The notes under the pieces: model-generated | Databases searched by the model: none | Seen by the model: only the letters and a program-made list of their open reading frames with translations | Told to the model about the DNA's origin: nothing | Position numbers and translations under genes: made by a program | Shown: one piece after another, positions 25,092 to 37,150 of the stretch | Layout: each line of letters opens with the position of its first letter | Numbering within the stretch: position 1 is the first letter of the stretch | Origin: Megalodesulfovibrio gigas DSM 1382 = ATCC 19364 | GTDB taxonomy: Bacteria; Desulfobacterota; Desulfovibrionia; Desulfovibrionales; Desulfovibrionaceae | Direction of reading: 5' to 3' | Assembly (NCBI RefSeq): GCF_000468495.1 | Contig: NC_022444.1 | Span: 3,061,681 to 3,125,680 of the forward strand | Length of the DNA: 64,000 nt

Positions 25092-26540
25092 ATGGCCGAC
25101 CCCACGCCCGCCCCGTCCCCTCCCGTCATTCCCTTGCCACTGGTGGAACATCTGTTCGATTCCCCGGTGGAACTGTTGCCCCTGCTCAACAGCATCCCCC
25201 TGCCGGTGGTGCTGCTCTCCAAAGACAAGCGCGTGCTTCTGCTTAACCGGCCAGCCCAGGCCCTCACCGGCTTTTCCCAGGAAGACGCCCAGGGCCTGCC
25301 CTGCCGCCACGTGCTGCGCTCCAGCCTGTGCGTGCGCGGCTGCCCCCTGGATGCACTGGGGGCCGAAGACCGCGCCGTGGTCCACGAGGCAGACATCATC
25401 AACAAGCTGCGCCAGCGCATTCCCGTACGGGCCACACAGTCCCCGGCCGTCACCTCCCAGGGCCGTCTGGCCGGGTACATCGAATGCATTGAAGACTTGC
25501 GCCCCCTCTCGGAGATGGCCAACCGGCAGCAGGCCGGCTTCACCTTCGGCCGCATCGTGGGGCGCTCCCCGCAGATGGAACGGCTTTTCCAGCTGGTGCC
25601 CTCCATCGCCTCTTCGGACTCCTCCGTGCTGGTGACCGGCGAAACCGGCACGGGCAAGGATCTGCTGGCCGAGGCCATCCATCAGGCCTCGCCCCGGGGC
25701 AAGGGCCCCTTCGTGAAGGTGAACTGCGGCGCCCTGCCGGAATCGCTGCTGGAATCCGAACTCTTCGGCCACCGCAAGGGCGCGTTCACCGGCGCCACCG
25801 AAAACAAGCCCGGCCGGTTTCAGCTTGCCCATAATGGCACGCTGTTTTTGACCGAAATCGGGGACCTGCCCCTGACCCTGCAGGTGAAGCTACTGACCTT
25901 TCTGGACGACCGCGTCATCTCCCCCCTGGGCGGCAGCATGCCCGTGCCGGTGAATGTGCGGCTCATCGCCGCCACCCACCGCAACCTGGAGGAGATGGTG
26001 CGCGCCGGCACGTTTCGTCAGGATCTCTTTTTCCGCCTCAATGTGGTGCGGCTGCACATCCCGGCCTTGCGCGACCGCGAAGAGGATGTGGATCTGCTGC
26101 TGGATCACTTCCTGCGCCGCATCAACGAGGAATTCAAGAAGCACGTGCAGACCTTCAGCGACGAAGCACGTGACATCCTGCTGCATTATGCCTATCCTGG
26201 CAACGTGCGCGAGCTGCGAAACATCGTGGAATACGCCGTCAACGTCTGCAACGGCAGCCGCATCGAACGCACCCACCTGCCTTCCTATCTGCTGGAACAG
26301 TCAGACATCCTGCCCGTGGCCTTCCGCCGGCTGGAGGCCGGTCCCGCTGCCACCGCCCTGCCTGTGCCAGCCGGCAACCCGGCCGTGCACGAGGGCGACG
26401 CATGGTCTGATATCGAGAAACGCATGATCCTCCAGGCCCTGGCCCAGGCCAAGGGCCGTCGGGGCAAGGCCGCCGATCTGCTCGGCTGGGGCCGCTCCAC
26501 CTTGTGGCGAAAAATGAAGCTGTACGGTCTGGATACATAA
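25092..26540 (+). CDS. PAS-containing sigma54-dependent transcriptional activator
   Basis: An N-terminal PAS domain (about 25-135) with a Cys triad at residues 71, 80 and 84 precedes an AAA+ domain: Walker A GETGTGKD (183-190), the sigma54 contact loop GAFTGA (230-235) and the arginine-finger region RQDLFFRLN. A Fis-type helix-turn-helix ends the protein (GRRGKAADLLGWGRSTLWRKM). Walker B reads LFLTEIGD, with Thr254 where the family has the Mg-binding Asp. The Cys triad suggests redox or metal sensing. The ATG has no clear ribosome-binding site; a TTG at 25038 is possible. A sigma54 promoter lies 0.5 kb downstream at 27047. Confidence 0.85.
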   Translation: MADPTPAPSPPVIPLPLVEHLFDSPVELLPLLNSIPLPVVLLSKDKRVLLLNRPAQALTGFSQEDAQGLPCRHVLRSSLCVRGCPLDALGAEDRAVVHEADIINKLRQRIPVRATQSPAVTSQGRLAGYIECIEDLRPLSEMANRQQAGFTFGRIVGRSPQMERLFQLVPSIASSDSSVLVTGETGTGKDLLAEAIHQASPRGKGPFVKVNCGALPESLLESELFGHRKGAFTGATENKPGRFQLAHNGTLFLTEIGDLPLTLQVKLLTFLDDRVISPLGGSMPVPVNVRLIAATHRNLEEMVRAGTFRQDLFFRLNVVRLHIPALRDREEDVDLLLDHFLRRINEEFKKHVQTFSDEARDILLHYAYPGNVRELRNIVEYAVNVCNGSRIERTHLPSYLLEQSDILPVAFRRLEAGPAATALPVPAGNPAVHEGDAWSDIEKRMILQALAQAKGRRGKAADLLGWGRSTLWRKMKLYGLDT

Positions 26541-26558: not shown

Positions 26559-26915
26559 ATGCCGCGTCTGCTCATCCCCCTGCTCGGCCTGGAAGTGGCC
26601 CCCCGGTTCGATCTAGCCACGGAAGTCTGGATCGGCGAGCTGGATGCCGCCACGCCGGAACACATCACCGGCAGCACCATCATCGTCCTGCCCCAGGCCT
26701 CGGCCGAGGATCTCTGCCAGCTGATCCTCAAGGAAGCCGTGGATGTGGTGCTGTGCGGGGGCATTGAGGAAGAATTCTACGACTATCTGCAGTGGAAACG
26801 CATCCAGGTGATCGATTCGGTCATCGCCCTGGCAGACGACGCCGCCCGGGCCTACGGGCGCGGCGAGTTGGGGCCGGGCACGCCAGACATCCGGGTGCTG
26901 CTGCCGCGCGGCTGA
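26559..26915 (+). CDS. NifX/NifB-type dinitrogenase iron-molybdenum cofactor-binding domain protein
   Basis: This 118-residue protein matches the small alpha/beta domain of the NifX/NafY/NifB C-terminal group: a start in RLLIPLLGLEVAPRFDLATEVWI, then VDVVLCGGIEEEFYDYL and a closing RVLLPRG. Family members bind Fe-S or Fe-Mo cluster precursors, and in sulfate reducers stand-alone copies are often linked to regulators. It lies 18 bases after the sigma54 activator stop and shares its operon, so it may modulate that regulator or carry a metal cluster. CCGGAG precedes the ATG. Confidence 0.7.
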   Translation: MPRLLIPLLGLEVAPRFDLATEVWIGELDAATPEHITGSTIIVLPQASAEDLCQLILKEAVDVVLCGGIEEEFYDYLQWKRIQVIDSVIALADDAARAYGRGELGPGTPDIRVLLPRG

Positions 26916-26965
26916 GTTGCTGTTTCGAATTGTTCCATATTGTCTTGTTCTTTTTTTATCAAATT

Positions 26966-26990
26966 GTTTCAAATCGTTTCCAGTTGAAAC
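26966..26990. promoter_or_regulatory. Candidate upstream activator site (inverted repeat GTTTCAA/TTGAAAC)
   Basis: GTTTCAA (26966-26972) and TTGAAAC (26984-26990) form a perfect inverted repeat, and further TTGTTYC-type half-sites run from about 26921 to 26980. It lies about 60-80 bases upstream of the sigma54 box, the usual place for an enhancer-binding protein, and the gene for such a protein is adjacent. Confidence 0.55.
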
Positions 26991-27046
26991 ACCCCGGCGT
27001 GTGGGAAATCCACGCAACCGCTCGAAATTCCACATTCCGTCCATCT

Positions 27047-27062
27047 TGGCACGCCTCTTGTT
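27047..27062 (+). promoter_or_regulatory. Sigma54 (RpoN) -24/-12 promoter
   Basis: TGGCACGCCTCTTGTT matches the RpoN consensus TGGCAC-N5-TTGC: the -24 GG and the -12 GT are ten bases apart, and only the final C of TTGC differs. It lies 64 bases before the ATG of the PEP-dikinase-like gene. Confidence 0.75.
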
Positions 27063-27125
27063 AAATCCTGGTCATGTGCGGTGCGCCAATGTGCCGCATG
27101 TGAAAGAAGTCGCAAGGAGGTCGCC

Positions 27126-29841
27126 ATGTTTCGATTCCTGCAATCCATCAAGTCCTTTCTGGGCGGCGGCAACGCGTCCCGGGAGCCCCGGCATGGCGGG
27201 TTGGAAGACACCTATGCCGCCGTGGCGTTTGCGGAACGCGGCGAGCATACCATGGCCGCGCGCGACATCCTGGGCGCCGTGCAGCGCGATTCCCGTGTGC
27301 GGCACAGTCTGGGGGCACTTTTGCCAGACCCTGCCCGAGCCCATTGCCGAGGACGTGCTGGCCTGGCTGGACAGCCAGACCGTGCGCATCGGCCGCGACG
27401 TCTTCACCATGCTCCAGGCCCTGCAGGCCATGGCTCCGAAGCAATACAGCGCGCTGACGGAACGATTCCGCGACATCTACCGGGATATCAACGCCACCCT
27501 GCGCCCGGCCTTCGTCTCCCCCGACGGCCCGCTGACGTTGCGCATCTCCGAAATGAACAGCGGCATGGGCGGCGTGGTGGGCGGCAAGATGGCCCAGCTG
27601 GGCGAGCTGCGCAACCAGCTGCTCTTCAACGTGCCGCCGGGATTCGCCGTCACCGTGCACGGGTTCGCCCTGTTCCGGGACGCCATTGGCCTGACGGATC
27701 TGGTGGCCATGGAGTGCGGCAACCTGTCGCCCTCCAATCCGCAGGAACTGCACGCCGCCTGCACGCGCATCCGCAAGACCATCATGGCGGCCACCCTCCC
27801 CGACGAGCTGGAAGAAGCCATCTGGAAACAGTTCGCCCGCCTGCAGTCCCTCAAGGGCAAGGATGTGGCCGTGGCCGTGCGCTCCAGCGCCGTGGGCGAG
27901 GATGCGCCGGGCGCCTCCTTTGCCGGCCAGTTCCGCACCCTGCTCAATGTGCGCGAGCATGCGCTCATCGACGCCATCAGGGAAGTGATGGCCAGCTTGT
28001 GGTCCCCGGCAGCCGTGAGCTACCGCAAGCGCCTGGGCATGCGCGAAACAGAAGCCGTGATGGCCGTGGGCGTGCTGACCCAGGAAAACGCCGTCTGCGG
28101 CGGCGTGGCCTACTCCCGTCATCCCCTGGATCCTGGCCTGGACGCCGTGACCATCGCCGCCAACTGGGGCCTGCCCAAGAGCGTGGTGGACGGCGCCGTG
28201 CCCACGGACCACTTCATGGTCTCCCGCTTCACCCCCATGCGCGTGGTGGAACGCCGCGTGGCCATAAAGCAGCGCAAATTCATCTGCCTGCCAGAGGAAG
28301 GCGTCTGCCGTCTGGAGGTGAACCCCGAGGACGCCGCCCGCCCCAGCCTGGACGACGCCCAGGCCATCAAGGTGGCCCACGCGGCCATGCGGATGGAAGA
28401 ATACTACGGGCATCCCGTGGATATCGAATGGTGCATCGGCGCGTCCAACACGGTCACGGTGCTGCAATGCCGCCCCCTGGAGGTGGCCCGGGACGTGCAA
28501 ACCCAGCATCTGCCCCCGAGCATCCCGCCGCTGCTGCACCAGGGCCGCACCGCCTCCCCCGGCGCAGCCTGCGGCCCGGCGTTCATCATCCAGAAAGAAG
28601 CGGACATGCTCCAGTTTCCCGAAGGCGCCGTGCTGGTGGCGGAAACCGCCTCCCCGCGCTATGCGGCGCTGTTGCCCAAGGCCGCGGCGGTGCTCACGGA
28701 GCACGGCAGCCTGACCGGCCATCTGGCCAATGTGGCCCGGGAGATGGGGGTGCCGGCGGTGTTCGGCCTGGAAGACGCGCGTACGCGCGTGCATCCCGGC
28801 AAGGAGCTGACCGTGGATGCGGATCTGGCCATGGTCTTCCCCGGCCGGGTGCGCCAGGTGCTCGCGCGGCCCACGCCGCGGCCGATGCTGGGGCAAACCC
28901 CCGGCCGCACCGCCATGCGCGCCGTGCTGGAAAAAATTGACCCCCTGACCATGGTGGATCCCCACGCCCCCAGCTTCCGGTCCGCCTCCTGCAAGACGTG
29001 GCACGACATCACCCGCTTCTGCCACGAAAAAATCGTCATGGAGCTGTTCGAGCAGGCCGAGAGCCTGGACCAGAAGATGGACGATTGCGACATGCGCGAG
29101 TGCCGCCGTCTGGTGGCGGAAAACGCCATGCAGTTCTGGGTGCTGGACCTCGGCGGCGGCGTGAAGCCCCGCTCCGAGGAGCTGGAAGTGGTGGAAGGCG
29201 TGTACATGGGCCGCAAGATCTCGCGGACCATCGTCAAGAAGATCGTCACCCTGGAAGAAATCGTCTGCGAGCCCATGCAGGCCGTCTGGCGGGGCATGAT
29301 GGCCAAGCCCTGGGAAGGCCCGCCGCCCATCGACTCCCGCGGGCTCATGAGCGTGTTCATGCAGGCCACCACCAATCCCATGCTGGACGTGAGCCGCGGC
29401 TCACCCATGCAAAACAAGAACTACTTCATCATCTCCAAGGATTTCGTCTGCCTGCAGTCGCGCTTCGGCTTTCACTTTCTCACGGTGGAGGCCCTGGTGA
29501 CGCCCGATCCCTCCAATGCCTATGCCCTGTTCCGCTTCCGCGGCGGTGCAGCGGACTTGGAACGCCGGGCCACCCGCGCCCGTCTGGTGGGCGATCTGCT
29601 GGCCGATCAGGGCTTTGCCATCGATTTGCTGGACGACGCCCTAAACGCCAAGGCCGACAGCCTGCCCCCGGACAAGATGCTGCGGCAGCTGGAAGTGCTG
29701 GGCTACCTGCTCATGCACACCCGACAGCTGGACATGATCATGGCCGACCCCGCCATGGTGGCCCGCTACCGCGCCGTCCTGCAGCAGGACATCAAGGCCC
29801 TGTACGCCGGCAAGTCGCTGACATCCGCCCCCCCGGGCTAG
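27126..29841 (+). CDS. PEP/pyruvate-dikinase-like phosphotransferase (frameshifted), copy 1
   Basis: A strong start (AAGGAGG, ATG at 27126) opens a frame that reads coherently to about codon 61, after which the homologous protein continues one base later. The break sits at a run of five G at 27311-27315. Past it the protein has an ATP-grasp PPDK_N domain (GKMAQLGELRNQLLFNVPPG, AVAVRSSAVGEDAPGASFAGQF), a mobile phospho-His domain (LTEHGSLTGHLANVAREMGVPAVFG) and a C-terminal domain of about 290 residues that is not the usual PEP-binding barrel. It resembles copy 2 at 33540 throughout. The break could be real, programmed (+1) or a sequencing error. Confidence 0.75.
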
Positions 29842-30014
29842 GGCGTTTTAATTTTTTGGAAGAGGACATTGGACCACGATACAAGTCTTTTGGAAATGGT
29901 CCCCCGCTCGCACCACTCTTCTTTTAAGGATAATCTCCTTCAGGACGCCGGCGGCTGATCCCGCCGCCAGAAATTCCCTTGCGCTTGCGCCGGGGGGTGT
30001 CTATTTTCCTCGGC
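29842..30014. other. Intergenic gap with a short hairpin
   Basis: The gap has a T-rich start (GTTTTAATTTTTTGG) and a 6-bp hairpin, CGGCGG (29949-29954)/CCGCCG (29961-29966). It may attenuate read-through into the PhnD-like gene. No promoter of good quality is visible. Confidence 0.35.
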
Positions 30015-31009
30015 ATGACCATCCCTGGCATGATGTCCGGCATCCGCTGGGCCGCCCTCCTTCTGGCCCTGGCCGGCTTGTTCCTGGCGTGTTGCAGCGA
30101 GGGCGAAACCGCCCGCAAGGTGGATTTTTCCAAACGCCAGGACCTGATGCCGCACCTGCCCAGGGACGGGCTGACCTACGCCTACCTGCCCCAGTATTCC
30201 CACACCATCTCCTATGCCCGGCATTACCGGCTGGTGGAACACCTGCGCGCCGTGACCGGGCTGCCCATCCGCCAGGTGTTCCCGGCCACCTTTGCCGAAC
30301 ACATCGACATGGTGCAGCGCGGGGAGATCGACATTTCCTACGTCAACCCCTTCGCCTATCTGAAGATGGCTCGCAGCGGCGCCTTTGCCTTTGCCCGCAT
30401 CATCGAACCCACGGGCTCGCCGGCGTTTCGCGGGGAAATCATCGTCCGGGCGGACAATCCGACCATCAAGACCATTGAGGACTGCCGGGGCAAACGGCTC
30501 ATGGCCGTGGATCCCTCCTCGGCGGGCGGCTTTCTCTTCCCCATGGGCCTGTTCCTGGAACATGGCGTGCACCTGGGAGATTTCGCCGAGGTGGCCTTTG
30601 CGCCGGGTCCGGGCGGCACGCAGGAAAAAGTGGTGCTGGCCGTGCACGCCGGGCTGTACGACGTGGGCGTGGTGCGCGACGGCACCCTGAGTCTGCTGGC
30701 CGACCGCATCGACATTTCCACCATTGCCGTCCTGGGCCGCTCCAAGGCGTACCCGGGCTGGCTGTTCGCCGCACGCCAGGGCTTGGCGCCCGAGGTGGTG
30801 GAGGCGGTGTCGCGGGCGTTGTTCTCCCTGTCCATGAATTCGCCCCTGGATGCGCCCATCCTGGAGGCGGCCCACATCCAGGCCGTGATCCCGGCCCGGG
30901 ATGCGGAGTATGAGCCCGTGCGGGAGCTGGTGGCCCGCCTGGAGGCGGATCTGGCCCGGGGCCGTGTGCCGCACCAGGCACCGACAGACATGCTGACGGA
31001 GGGGATGGA

Positions 31010-31013
<4 letters not shown>
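30015..31013 (+). CDS. PhnD-like periplasmic phosphonate/phosphate-binding lipoprotein
   Basis: A lipoprotein signal peptide (LLLALAGLFLAC) precedes a type II periplasmic-binding fold with PhnD phrases: YAYLPQYSHTISYARHYRLVEHL at the start, RGEIDISYVNPFAYL, SSAGGFLFP and LYDVGVVRDGTL. PhnD proteins bind phosphonate, phosphite or related anions for ABC import. There is no permease here; the gene overlaps the sensor kinase start (ATGA), so it is probably the kinase's ligand-binding partner. I chose the ATG at 30015; GTG (29997) and TTG (29979) are upstream alternatives. Confidence 0.75.
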
Positions 31014-33142
<2,129 letters not shown>

Positions 33143-33165
33143 GCCACTCCACCACAAGGACCCCC

Positions 33166-33525
33166 ATGGCAAACATCATCGTGCTGGACGACGTGGCCGA
33201 CGCCGGCGTGCTCATCAAGCGCATCCTGGAGCGCAAGGGCCACGCCGTGACCAGCTTTACCGAAGAGGAAGAAGCCCTGGCCTTTGCCGCCAAACACCGG
33301 CCGCAGCTGGCCATCCTGGACATCAAACTCAAGAAGATGACTGGCGTGGAAGTGCTGGACGAGCTGAAAAAGATCGACGCCGGCATCAAGGTCATCATGC
33401 TCACAGGCTATCCCACCCTGGAAACGGCGCGCGAAAGCGTGCGCCTGGGCGCGGACGAATACTGCGTGAAACCCATCGACAAGGACGAGCTCGAATTCAA
33501 GGTGGAAGAGGTGCTCGCCAAGTAA
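33166..33525 (+). CDS. Single-domain response regulator
   Basis: This 119-residue receiver has the acidic pocket (VLDD at the N terminus), the phospho-acceptor in LAILDIKLKKMTG, the Thr of MLTGYPT and the Lys of CVKPIDK. It has no output domain, so it acts through a partner, possibly the PEP-dikinase-like proteins or another phosphotransfer protein. The start has AAGGA six bases upstream; a GTG at 33139 that overlaps the kinase stop would add nine residues. It is cotranscribed with the kinase. Confidence 0.85.
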   Translation: MANIIVLDDVADAGVLIKRILERKGHAVTSFTEEEEALAFAAKHRPQLAILDIKLKKMTGVEVLDELKKIDAGIKVIMLTGYPTLETARESVRLGADEYCVKPIDKDELEFKVEEVLAK

Positions 33526-33539
33526 GCCCCAGCCGTGGT

Positions 33540-36077
33540 ATGCAGGTCCCCGTGCTGAACAAGGAACTACTGAAACACTGGACCTATCAGGTCTTTGCGC
33601 CGGGGACGCTGCTGCGGGTCCGGTACGAGGCGTTTCGCGAGCTGCTGGCCCTGGACGAAACCTGCCTGGAGCGCATCACCGAGCTGGAAGACATCCACTA
33701 CGGCCGCCGCGCCGTGGACTGGACCCGCGTGGTGTATCTGGTGCACGAGCTGGAGGACCTCGGCCGCAAACTCGTCTCCGCCCTGACCTCCCTCTCGCCC
33801 ACCAAGGGCGTTGCCTTGATGGAATATTTCCAGAAGATCGCCTTCTATCTGGAAATGGCGGTGGACATCGCCCCACCCGAAGCCGCCCCGCCCTTTGTGC
33901 TGCCCCTGGACCCCAAGGCCCCGCCGGCCCAGCTGGGCGGCAAGGCCGCCAATCTGGTGCAGGCCCGCCAGCTTCCGGACATGCCCATGCCCCAGGGCTT
34001 CGTCATCGCCGCCAGCGCCTTTCATTATTTTCTGGAAGCCAACAACCTGCGCGAAGCCCTGGACGAACAACTGCGCACCCTGCGGCTGGACGATCCCGAG
34101 GGCCTGGAGCGCGCCAGCGCCACCTTGCAGGCCCTGGTGCGCGAGGCCGAGATTCCCCCGGCCATCCTGCAGGAGCTGGCCCAGGCCCGCGCCAGCCTGC
34201 CCACCCCGGCCGCCCGCCTGGCCGTGCGCTCCAGCGCCGTGGCCGAGGATGCGGCCAATTCCTTCGCCGGGCAGTACGACAGCCTCCTGGACGTGGTCCC
34301 CGAGGATCTGCCCGAGGCCTGGCGCACCGTGGTCATGGGCAAGTATTCCCCCCGGGCCCTGACCTACCGCATTCTTACCGGCCTGTCGGACCTGGAAACG
34401 CCCATGGCCGTACTGGTCATGCCCATGGTGGACGCTGCCTATGCCGGCGTCTGCTACACCCGCGATGCGGACCGCTCCGCCAGCCTGTGCGGCATGATGG
34501 CCCTGTACGCCGTGCCGGGGCTGGGGGAGAATCTCGTCAGCGGCCGACTGTCTCCCGGGGTGTTCTGCATCGATCCCGGCGCGCCGCCGGCGCATCCCCC
34601 GGCCATCCTGCAGCGGCCGCCCGGCTTTGCCGGTCTGCCCGACGAGACCGTGCGCCGTCTGGCCCGCATGGCCTGGCAACTGGAGCAGTTCTTCGGCAGC
34701 CCGCAGGATGTGGAATGGGCCGTGGACCGGGCCGGTGCGCCATGGATTTTGCAAACCCGGCCCATGCAGCAAGGCCAGACGGCCACGCCCGCCGCCTTTG
34801 CTGCAGAGCAGCTGCCTGAGCATATCCCCGGGCATCTGCCCGAGCATCTGCCCGAACATCTGCCCGAACATCTGCCGGATCCCCTGCTGTCCGGCGGCGT
34901 GTCCGTCTCCCCTGGCGGCGCCTGTGGCCCGGTGGTGCACGCCCGCACCGAGGCGGCCATCCGCAGTGCGCCGGCCGGCTGCATCCTGATCACGGAATCC
35001 ATGCCGCCCTCCCTGGTGCAGATCATGGGCCAGGTGGCCGGGGTGATCAGCCTGCGGGGCAGCCGGGCCTCTCATTTTGCCTCCGTGGCCCGGGAATTCG
35101 GCCTGCCGGTGGTGGTGGGTGGCGACCGCGTGTTTTCCCTGCTCCGGGAAGGCGAAGAAATCACCCTGGACGCCGTGCACGGCCACGTCTTTCCCGGCTG
35201 CATCCAGGCCGTGGTGGAGGCTGCCCGGCTGCCGCGCAAGTCCCTGGTGGCGGCGGCGCACTCCCGCCTGGGCAAGCTCCTGCCGCATGTGGCCACCCTC
35301 TCCCTCACGGACCCCACCTCCCCCCAGTTCCGGCCGGAAAGCTGCCGCTCCGTGCACGATGTGGTCCGCTTTGCCCACGAAACCGCGGTGCAGGAAATGT
35401 TCTCCCTGCTGGGCAAGTCTGCCCGCGGCATGGCCCGGGCCAAGAAGCTCCAGACCCGCCTGCCCATGAGCATGTACGTGCTGGACCTGGGCGGCGGCCT
35501 CTTTGCCGGCGCGCGGGACAAGGCCGAGATTGTCCCGGACGACATCACCTCCACCCCCATGTGGGCGCTGTGGTGGGGCATGTCCAGCGTGCCCCTGCCG
35601 GCCGCCTCCCTGCCCATGGCCGACTGGGAATCCCTGGACCGCCACAGCGGCGGGCTGCTGCTGGACGACAGACTGCTGGCCAGCTTCGCCGTCATTGATG
35701 ATGCCTACGCCCATCTGATGCTGCGCTTCGGCTATCATTTCTGTGTGGTGGACGCCCTGTGCGTGCAGGGTGGGGAAAAAAACCATGTGGCCGTGCGCTT
35801 CAAGGGCGGCGGCGGGCAGTATCACCAACGGCTGCTGCGGCTGGATTTCCTCCGCCACGTACTGGAGGCGCAAGGGTTTTCCATCAAGACCATGGGAGAT
35901 TTGTTCGAGGCCCGTCTGGCCGGGGTGGACTGCAACACCCTGCGCCGCCGGCTGGTGGTGCTGGGTCGGTTGCTGGCCACCACCCGGCTCATGGACATGG
36001 CCCTGGACACCCCCGAGCAGGCCCACGCCCAGGCCCGGGAGTTCCTGGACGCCATGGCCGCCGAGCAGGAACACTAG
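33540..36077 (+). CDS. PEP/pyruvate-dikinase-like phosphotransferase, copy 2
   Basis: An N-terminal helical region (1-125) is followed by an ATP-grasp PPDK_N domain (about 130-410; LGGKAANLVQAR, AVRSSAVAEDAANSFAGQ, WILQTRPM), a Leu-Pro-Glu-His repeat linker (425-444), a mobile phospho-His domain with SRASHFASVAREFGLP, and a C-terminal domain of about 280 residues shared with copy 1. The PEP-binding barrel of true PEP synthase is not seen, so this may phosphorylate another substrate, as rifampin phosphotransferase does. Downstream, the phosphatase gene follows immediately. Confidence 0.75.
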   Translation: MQVPVLNKELLKHWTYQVFAPGTLLRVRYEAFRELLALDETCLERITELEDIHYGRRAVDWTRVVYLVHELEDLGRKLVSALTSLSPTKGVALMEYFQKIAFYLEMAVDIAPPEAAPPFVLPLDPKAPPAQLGGKAANLVQARQLPDMPMPQGFVIAASAFHYFLEANNLREALDEQLRTLRLDDPEGLERASATLQALVREAEIPPAILQELAQARASLPTPAARLAVRSSAVAEDAANSFAGQYDSLLDVVPEDLPEAWRTVVMGKYSPRALTYRILTGLSDLETPMAVLVMPMVDAAYAGVCYTRDADRSASLCGMMALYAVPGLGENLVSGRLSPGVFCIDPGAPPAHPPAILQRPPGFAGLPDETVRRLARMAWQLEQFFGSPQDVEWAVDRAGAPWILQTRPMQQGQTATPAAFAAEQLPEHIPGHLPEHLPEHLPEHLPDPLLSGGVSVSPGGACGPVVHARTEAAIRSAPAGCILITESMPPSLVQIMGQVAGVISLRGSRASHFASVAREFGLPVVVGGDRVFSLLREGEEITLDAVHGHVFPGCIQAVVEAARLPRKSLVAAAHSRLGKLLPHVATLSLTDPTSPQFRPESCRSVHDVVRFAHETAVQEMFSLLGKSARGMARAKKLQTRLPMSMYVLDLGGGLFAGARDKAEIVPDDITSTPMWALWWGMSSVPLPAASLPMADWESLDRHSGGLLLDDRLLASFAVIDDAYAHLMLRFGYHFCVVDALCVQGGEKNHVAVRFKGGGGQYHQRLLRLDFLRHVLEAQGFSIKTMGDLFEARLAGVDCNTLRRRLVVLGRLLATTRLMDMALDTPEQAHAQAREFLDAMAAEQEH
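34812..34871. repeat. Five 12-base tandem repeats encoding LPEH
   Basis: CTGCCYGARCAT-type units run five times in register inside copy 2 and encode LPEH-IPGH-LPEH-LPEH-LPEH at residues 425-444, between the ATP-grasp and mobile domains. This is likely an extended swivel linker whose length can vary by replication slippage. Confidence 0.8.
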
Positions 36078-36079
36078 CC

Positions 36080-37150
36080 GTGGCCGGCCGGGAATCGCCG
36101 CTCATGTGGGTCTCGGACCAGCTGGCCGTGGGCGCGGCACCCCTCTCCTACGTGCAACTGGCCCGCCTGCACGACGAGGGCATTTCCGCCATCCTCAACC
36201 TGTGCGACGAGTTCTGCGACCTGCACGACATCGAGCGCGATCACGGGTTCGAGGTCCATCACCTCCCCATCCCCGACGAAGAAGCCCCGGACATGACCGC
36301 CCTGGAACAGGCCCTCTCCTGGCTGGACGAGGCCATCTATCTGGGCAAGAAGGTCTACATCCACTGCCGCCACGGCATCGGCCGCACCGGCACCGTGCTC
36401 AATGCCTACCTGCTGCGCCGCGGCCTGGGCTACAAGCTGGCGGATCGCGTGCTGGCCAAGCTGCGCAGCAAGCCCACCAACTTCTGCCAGTGGCGGGCCG
36501 TCAAGCGCTACGGCAAGGTTGCCGGCAAGCTGACCATCCGCGAGCCGCGGCTGGAGTTCAAACGGCTGGTGGATCTGCATCCCTTCATCCACGATTACGA
36601 AAATCTGGCCGCCGAGGTCGAGGCCGCCATTGCCGCCGCCTGCGCTGCCCTGCCTCGGTGCGGCCGCGAACATGCCCGCTGCTGCAGCCGGCCCGTGCAA
36701 CTGACGTTCATCGAGGCCGTGGATCTGGCCACCGTGATCAACCAGGAACTAACCAGCGAGAAGCGCCAGGCCCTCATCGAACGCGCCACCCAGGCCTCCC
36801 GCCAGGAGCGGCTTGCCCGTCAGGCCCAGACGCAGGATGCCCAAATCGTCCAGGGAGAAAGCTGTCTGGCGGACATGGCCTTCCCCTGCCCCCTGCTGGA
36901 GGACGGCCGCTGCCTGCTCTTCTACATGCGGCCCCTGCAATGCCGCACTTACGGCATGCCCGCGGATGCTGCGGATGCGCTCTGGCGGCACATCTCCCCC
37001 ACCCTGGCCCAGCTCTCCAGCCAGACCTTTCTGGCCCTCTCCGGCTCGTTTCTGCCGGAATCGCCCCTGACCTTCTCCATTGCGGAGGTGGTCTCCGGCC
37101 GCTACGTCCAGCGCTTCTTCCACCAGCTCCGTCTGGCCATGCAGGGGTAG
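36080..37150 (+). CDS. Dual-specificity phosphatase fused to a YkgJ-like Cys-cluster domain
   Basis: Residues 1-150 form a dual-specificity/tyrosine phosphatase with the P-loop HCRHGIGRTG (Cys96, Arg102) and the general-acid candidate in PDEEAPD. Residues about 180-350 carry C194, C201-C202, then C270, C278 and C288 in the pattern CPLLEDGRC..RPLQCRTYG, which matches the YkgJ family of zinc/iron-chelating domains. The start is GTG, with AGGAA upstream; ATG at 36104 is an alternative. It ends the PhnD/kinase/dikinase cluster and could reverse phosphorylation made by the proteins encoded upstream. I know of no standard family with this fusion. Confidence 0.8.
   Translation: MAGRESPLMWVSDQLAVGAAPLSYVQLARLHDEGISAILNLCDEFCDLHDIERDHGFEVHHLPIPDEEAPDMTALEQALSWLDEAIYLGKKVYIHCRHGIGRTGTVLNAYLLRRGLGYKLADRVLAKLRSKPTNFCQWRAVKRYGKVAGKLTIREPRLEFKRLVDLHPFIHDYENLAAEVEAAIAAACAALPRCGREHARCCSRPVQLTFIEAVDLATVINQELTSEKRQALIERATQASRQERLARQAQTQDAQIVQGESCLADMAFPCPLLEDGRCLLFYMRPLQCRTYGMPADAADALWRHISPTLAQLSSQTFLALSGSFLPESPLTFSIAEVVSGRYVQRFFHQLRLAMQG

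Follow-up and report, generated by a model that had tools for sequence, protein, structure and literature searches.

Kazakov et al. (2015; PMC4641369) described the single-component sigma54 regulons of Desulfovibrio vulgaris Hildenborough, which are close described relatives of the system presented here. In those regulons, as in our case, one-component activators are encoded beside their predicted target sigma54 operon and conserved sites are found upstream, and the DVU0569 promoter lies downstream of the activator gene, as it does in the window (the whole 64-kb stretch of DNA that was analysed). Unlike our locus, the regulons presented in the main text of that report do not combine an activator that has a NifX-like partner with an operon of receiver, CBS, and DASS or TSUP genes (PMC4641369).

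OrpR (DVU2106) also resembles our activator, being a sigma54 activator encoded beside the genes of the orange-protein complex. This complex includes proteins of the PF02579 family, and OrpR senses via Fe-S. IHF is required at the orp operons (PMC3897727). However, the orp operons are divergent, lack a transporter and are controlled by an activator with a GAFTDA motif, whereas the window locus has a tandem layout with other genes, an activator with GAFTGA and no divergent orp operons beside it. A third point of comparison is the set of DASS sulfate-transporter clusters reported in 26 sulfate reducers, which also hold two-component and CBS genes and for which control by kinases and response regulators has been proposed (2025; PMC11887813). 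The Desulfosarcina variabilis-type cluster contains, like many of the operons considered below, a DASS permease, CBS proteins and several two-component genes, but as far as the cited text of that account extends, a sigma54 activator, a NifX-like gene or a GTTTC array is not mentioned (PMC11887813).

The window most probably contains a sigma54 module that works via a GTTTC array and whose local target operon has been damaged by deletion. The elements, the gene pairing, their conservation and the deletion relative to a sister species are demonstrated at the level of sequence. The module is ordinary in kind and, as far as the cited parts of the literature show, it has not been described for an operon of this type. 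Genome-wide statements come from pattern searches of the host genome, which has 3.796 Mb in two contigs, with a chromosome of 3,693,899 bases.

The activator and its NifX-like partner

The activator gene is located at 25092-26540 on the forward strand and its product contains a PAS domain with three cysteines (Cys71, Cys80, and Cys84), an AAA+ domain with a GAFTGA motif, and a Fis-type HTH; the presence of both of the latter identifies it as a sigma54 enhancer-binding protein. In a set of 96 activator sequences the three cysteines are kept at 96-99% and GAFTGA is present in nearly all, and the PAS domain may hold a metal or Fe-S centre. The initial annotation had described this gene as adjacent to the promoter. 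The ORF was confirmed, but a second gene (26559-26915, forward strand) intervenes before the promoter, and it encodes a small NifX/DiNase-like protein that falls slightly under the Pfam cut-off for PF02579 and whose profile matches MJ0327 structures.

This NifX-like gene belongs to the regulatory module. The activator adjoins it in all 30 orthologue loci of the Desulfovibrionaceae, and the pair was present in 77 of the 80 named loci, which were collected via the NifX-like protein and are mostly from Desulfobacterota. Two of the three named loci without the pair start at a contig edge.

The GTTTC array and the sigma54 element

A near-consensus RpoN site had been claimed at 27047, and the sigma54 -24/-12 element TGGCACGCCTCTTGTT is present at 27047-27062 on the forward strand, one base off the consensus. 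It fits TGGCACG-N4-TTGC save that a T replaces the last C; in the promoter core (TGG-N9-TGT) the GG and the spacing are correct and the C that is usual at -12 is a T, a variant shared with the sister species (G015). Transcription is expected to start at ~27072, and a scan of 26880-27160 revealed neither a sigma70-like promoter nor a terminator.

Upstream of this element we have found five half-sites (GTTTC at 26922, GTTCC at 26932, GTTTC at 26966 and 26976, and an inverted GAAAC at 26986) with spacings of 10, 34, 10, and 10. The first two form a putative enhancer box (GTTTC-N5-GTTCC, 26922-26936), a direct repeat with a 10-bp period, and the next two form a second putative box (GTTTC-N5-GTTTC, 26966-26980) that begins 34 bp after the GTTCC of the first, both boxes being on the forward strand. 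The inverted half-site (26986-26990, reverse strand) pairs with the one at 26966 in the inverted repeat that the initial annotation had reported as perfect and 60-80 bases upstream. In fact, GTTTCAA at 26966-26972 and TTGAAAC at 26984-26990 match perfectly across an 11-bp spacer and were measured at 57-81 bp upstream of the promoter, and the further half-sites that had been mentioned were located at 26922, 26932, and 26976. A T-rich tract with an ATCAA end (26950-26962, forward strand), identical in the sister species, may be a weak IHF-like candidate.

Chance expectations were obtained by dinucleotide shuffling (n=5000) of the 131-bp stretch that precedes the promoter. The inverted repeat by itself is unremarkable because two 7-bp inverted repeats in this stretch, against a shuffle mean of 0.44, correspond to p ~0.10; the palindrome was rejected as the binding site on this basis and because its outer bases differ in the sister species. 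For the number of half-sites p was 0.01, and the two direct repeats spaced at 10 bp were matched in none of the 5000 shuffles. On sequence grounds, the putative enhancer is formed by the GTTTC direct repeats with a 10-bp period, arranged in two boxes, and not mainly by the palindrome. In the sister species, whose activator is 93% identical, all five half-sites are found in the same register, two of them with single changes, and the promoter core, with its unusual T at -12, is identical over more than 20 bases.

A search for the half-site near other RpoN promoters had also been suggested initially, and the combination of repeats and promoter was found at a single locus of the genome, the one described here, with no matches in the control; it also occurs once in the window. 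A second candidate site near 2727056, upstream of a CBS-domain gene, carries a TGTTTCATAATGTTGCA repeat (L040 1501-1517, G000:C2:2727056) and was discarded as it has no convincing sigma54 element.

The probable target operon and its remnant in the window

The operon typically found downstream of the module encodes a pseudo-receiver, a CBS protein and a DASS (sulfate-type) permease. Among the 66 loci whose downstream sequence exceeded 8 kb, 42 had a DASS, TSUP or SulP permease there, and 40 of these 42 were DASS, although some of the DASS matches are only ~23% identical. Across genera, the operon commonly opens with a receiver gene whose product has Gly replacing the phospho-Asp (e.g., L067 7919-8281). 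According to the DASS-cluster account (PMC11887813) and to their family membership, the operon permeases probably transport sulfate. The idea that a regulatory RNA could be the target in one genus, as for DVU2359 (PMC4641369), was rejected since the promoter of that genus is followed by a receiver ORF, and scripted 'CMK' matches downstream were discarded as being mostly receiver domains. The operon order in the sister species is a small ORF, receivers, a TSUP permease, protein Y, and the PEP-synthase-like PEPa; the order TSUP-Y-PEPa was also found in L060, and TSUP-Y in L129. The window contains no DASS permease cluster and the genome has no close DASS homologue (best 23%).

The first feature after the promoter in the window is a Shine-Dalgarno sequence (AAGGAGG) with the 5' portion of a conserved small ORF (ATG at 27126), together spanning 27115-27323 on the forward strand; this ORF has 83 aa in the sister species and is cut here at a junction at 27323-27325. 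It is followed by PEPa (27325-29841), a 5'-truncated PEP-synthase-like gene (PPDK_N and PEP-utilizers) whose reading frame differs from that of the small ORF, and then by genes for a PhnD-like periplasmic binding protein (29979-31013), a histidine kinase (sCache, PAS, HisKA, and HATPase_c; 31010-33142), a stand-alone receiver with a normal phospho-Asp (LAILDIK; 33148-33525), and PEPb, a second PPDK_N and PEP-utilizers protein (33555-36077), all of them on the forward strand. Up to ~27324 the window aligns with the activator locus of the sister species, and beyond this point with another sister contig that bears PEPa. The first of these contigs stops inside a TSUP (TauE) permease, and the second starts inside a TSUP permease and continues with protein Y, PEPa, PhnD, the kinase, and the receiver. 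As read from this alignment, a deletion of ~4.1 kb, a size that presumes neighbouring sister contigs with a gap of ~240 bases, took the receivers, the TSUP permease, and protein Y, and PEPa lost its start. The possibility that PEPa simply contains a frameshift or a sequencing error was dropped in favour of a deletion junction.

Because the receivers and the permease are lost and PEPa is truncated, the intact switch would read into a damaged operon. The initial annotation had proposed a dedicated activator of the downstream cluster; conservation strongly supports the switch, but the apparent target cluster is a truncated remnant of a deletion. The deletion rests on one assembly and the junction carries just a few bases of microhomology, as could be expected if the join were an assembly error and the strain truly had the receivers, the TSUP permease, and protein Y, the reading of the promoter being correct all the same. 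We consider this unlikely, since the missing sister DNA was found nowhere in the host genome whereas the adjoining sister DNA was matched there at 90% identity.

The module in other genomes and its proposed mode of action

Sigma54-like sites were scored with a matrix written from the general consensus, and 28 of the 30 family loci have one that exceeds 10 bits downstream of the pair, mostly with GTTTC half-sites, while ~5% of control windows attain this level; the loci of genus g38 have a diverged form of the array (e.g., GATGC-N5-GTTGC-N5-GATGC). Ahead of the sigma54 site in 38 loci we counted 100 half-sites (GTTTC/GAAAC) vs ~13 expected, 19 direct repeats at 10 bp vs 0.015 expected, and 11 at 34 bp and 8 at 44 bp, both far above expectation. 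The window array shows exactly these 10, 34, and 44 bp spacings. Furthermore, in 36 of the 80 named loci a sigma54 site with GTTTC half-sites was located on the strand of the pair and no more than 4 kb downstream of it, with 0 upstream and 1 on the opposite strand as controls, and the motif scan was negative in the remaining 44, some of them on short contigs. The loci share ancestry, so none of these counts is independent. When the pair is followed by histidine kinase and response regulator genes, the motif lies ~2.2-3.5 kb off, before the next operon, which often encodes a receiver, a CBS protein, and a DASS permease. A pattern search across the family that was blind to gene position gave 26 matches, 6 of which fell directly after the activator gene or a homologue (loci in G002, G024, G028, G059, G092, and G139).

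In the mechanism that we propose, the neighbouring activator would bind the GTTTC array (26922-26990) and loop to the sigma54-RNA polymerase, firing the promoter at 27047-27062. Its Cys-containing PAS domain would sense the signal, and the NifX-like partner would perhaps modulate this sensing. The module is widespread in sulfate-reducing Desulfobacterota and is normally placed before an operon that encodes a pseudo-receiver, a CBS protein, and an anion permease of the DASS or TSUP type, with sulfate as the probable substrate.

It could be argued that the array is bound by another regulator, such as a response regulator of the cluster, and that the activator acts elsewhere, as histidine kinases and receivers are frequent in these clusters and the published model, in the text cited, assigns them a transcriptional role (PMC11887813). 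This is improbable, because the receivers at the operon start are stand-alone and mostly without phospho-Asp, and because the array is found after the activator gene also in loci with no intervening kinase. Moreover, the activators in L128, L132, L136, and L146 lack the C-terminal Fis HTH, and in these four loci the GTTTC array and sigma54 site were absent downstream of them. The joint absence of HTH and motif, in only four cases, is no more than suggestive of a link between activator and array.

With respect to the target of the sigma54 module, PEPa is by position under the promoter, and probably so in the sister operon, further downstream. It is nevertheless very improbable that the PEP-synthase-like cluster is intact as a dedicated target, the frame change being a programmed or tolerated fusion, as the sister species has two separate complete genes ~4.1 kb apart, and the join, besides being out of frame, removed the PEPa start. 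Finally, the genome is rich in near-consensus sigma54 elements (101 matches at no more than one mismatch vs 78 in the reversed control), but that the element at 27047 is a functionless chance sequence is hardly credible given its position, the array, its conservation in the sister species and its recurrence across many genera.

A sigma54 module heading a transporter operon would represent an alternative to the kinase/response-regulator control of sulfate uptake put forward in the cited account (PMC11887813), and, via the Cys PAS domain, a redox or metal signal may be coupled to uptake. Tentatively, and without yet favouring it, we suggest that the Cys-PAS sigma54 activator and its NifX-like partner could be, via the GTTTC array, the main switch of DASS/TSUP uptake across sulfate-reducing Desulfobacterota, with its cargo lost in this genome.

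Two additional observations were made on the PEP-synthase-like genes and their surroundings. The same genome contains a second PEPa-type cluster, 42% identical, at G000:C2:3200890-3207172, and the ORF that follows PEPb (36104-37150) resembles by eye a dual-specificity phosphatase, with which PEPb could possibly form a kinase/phosphatase pair.
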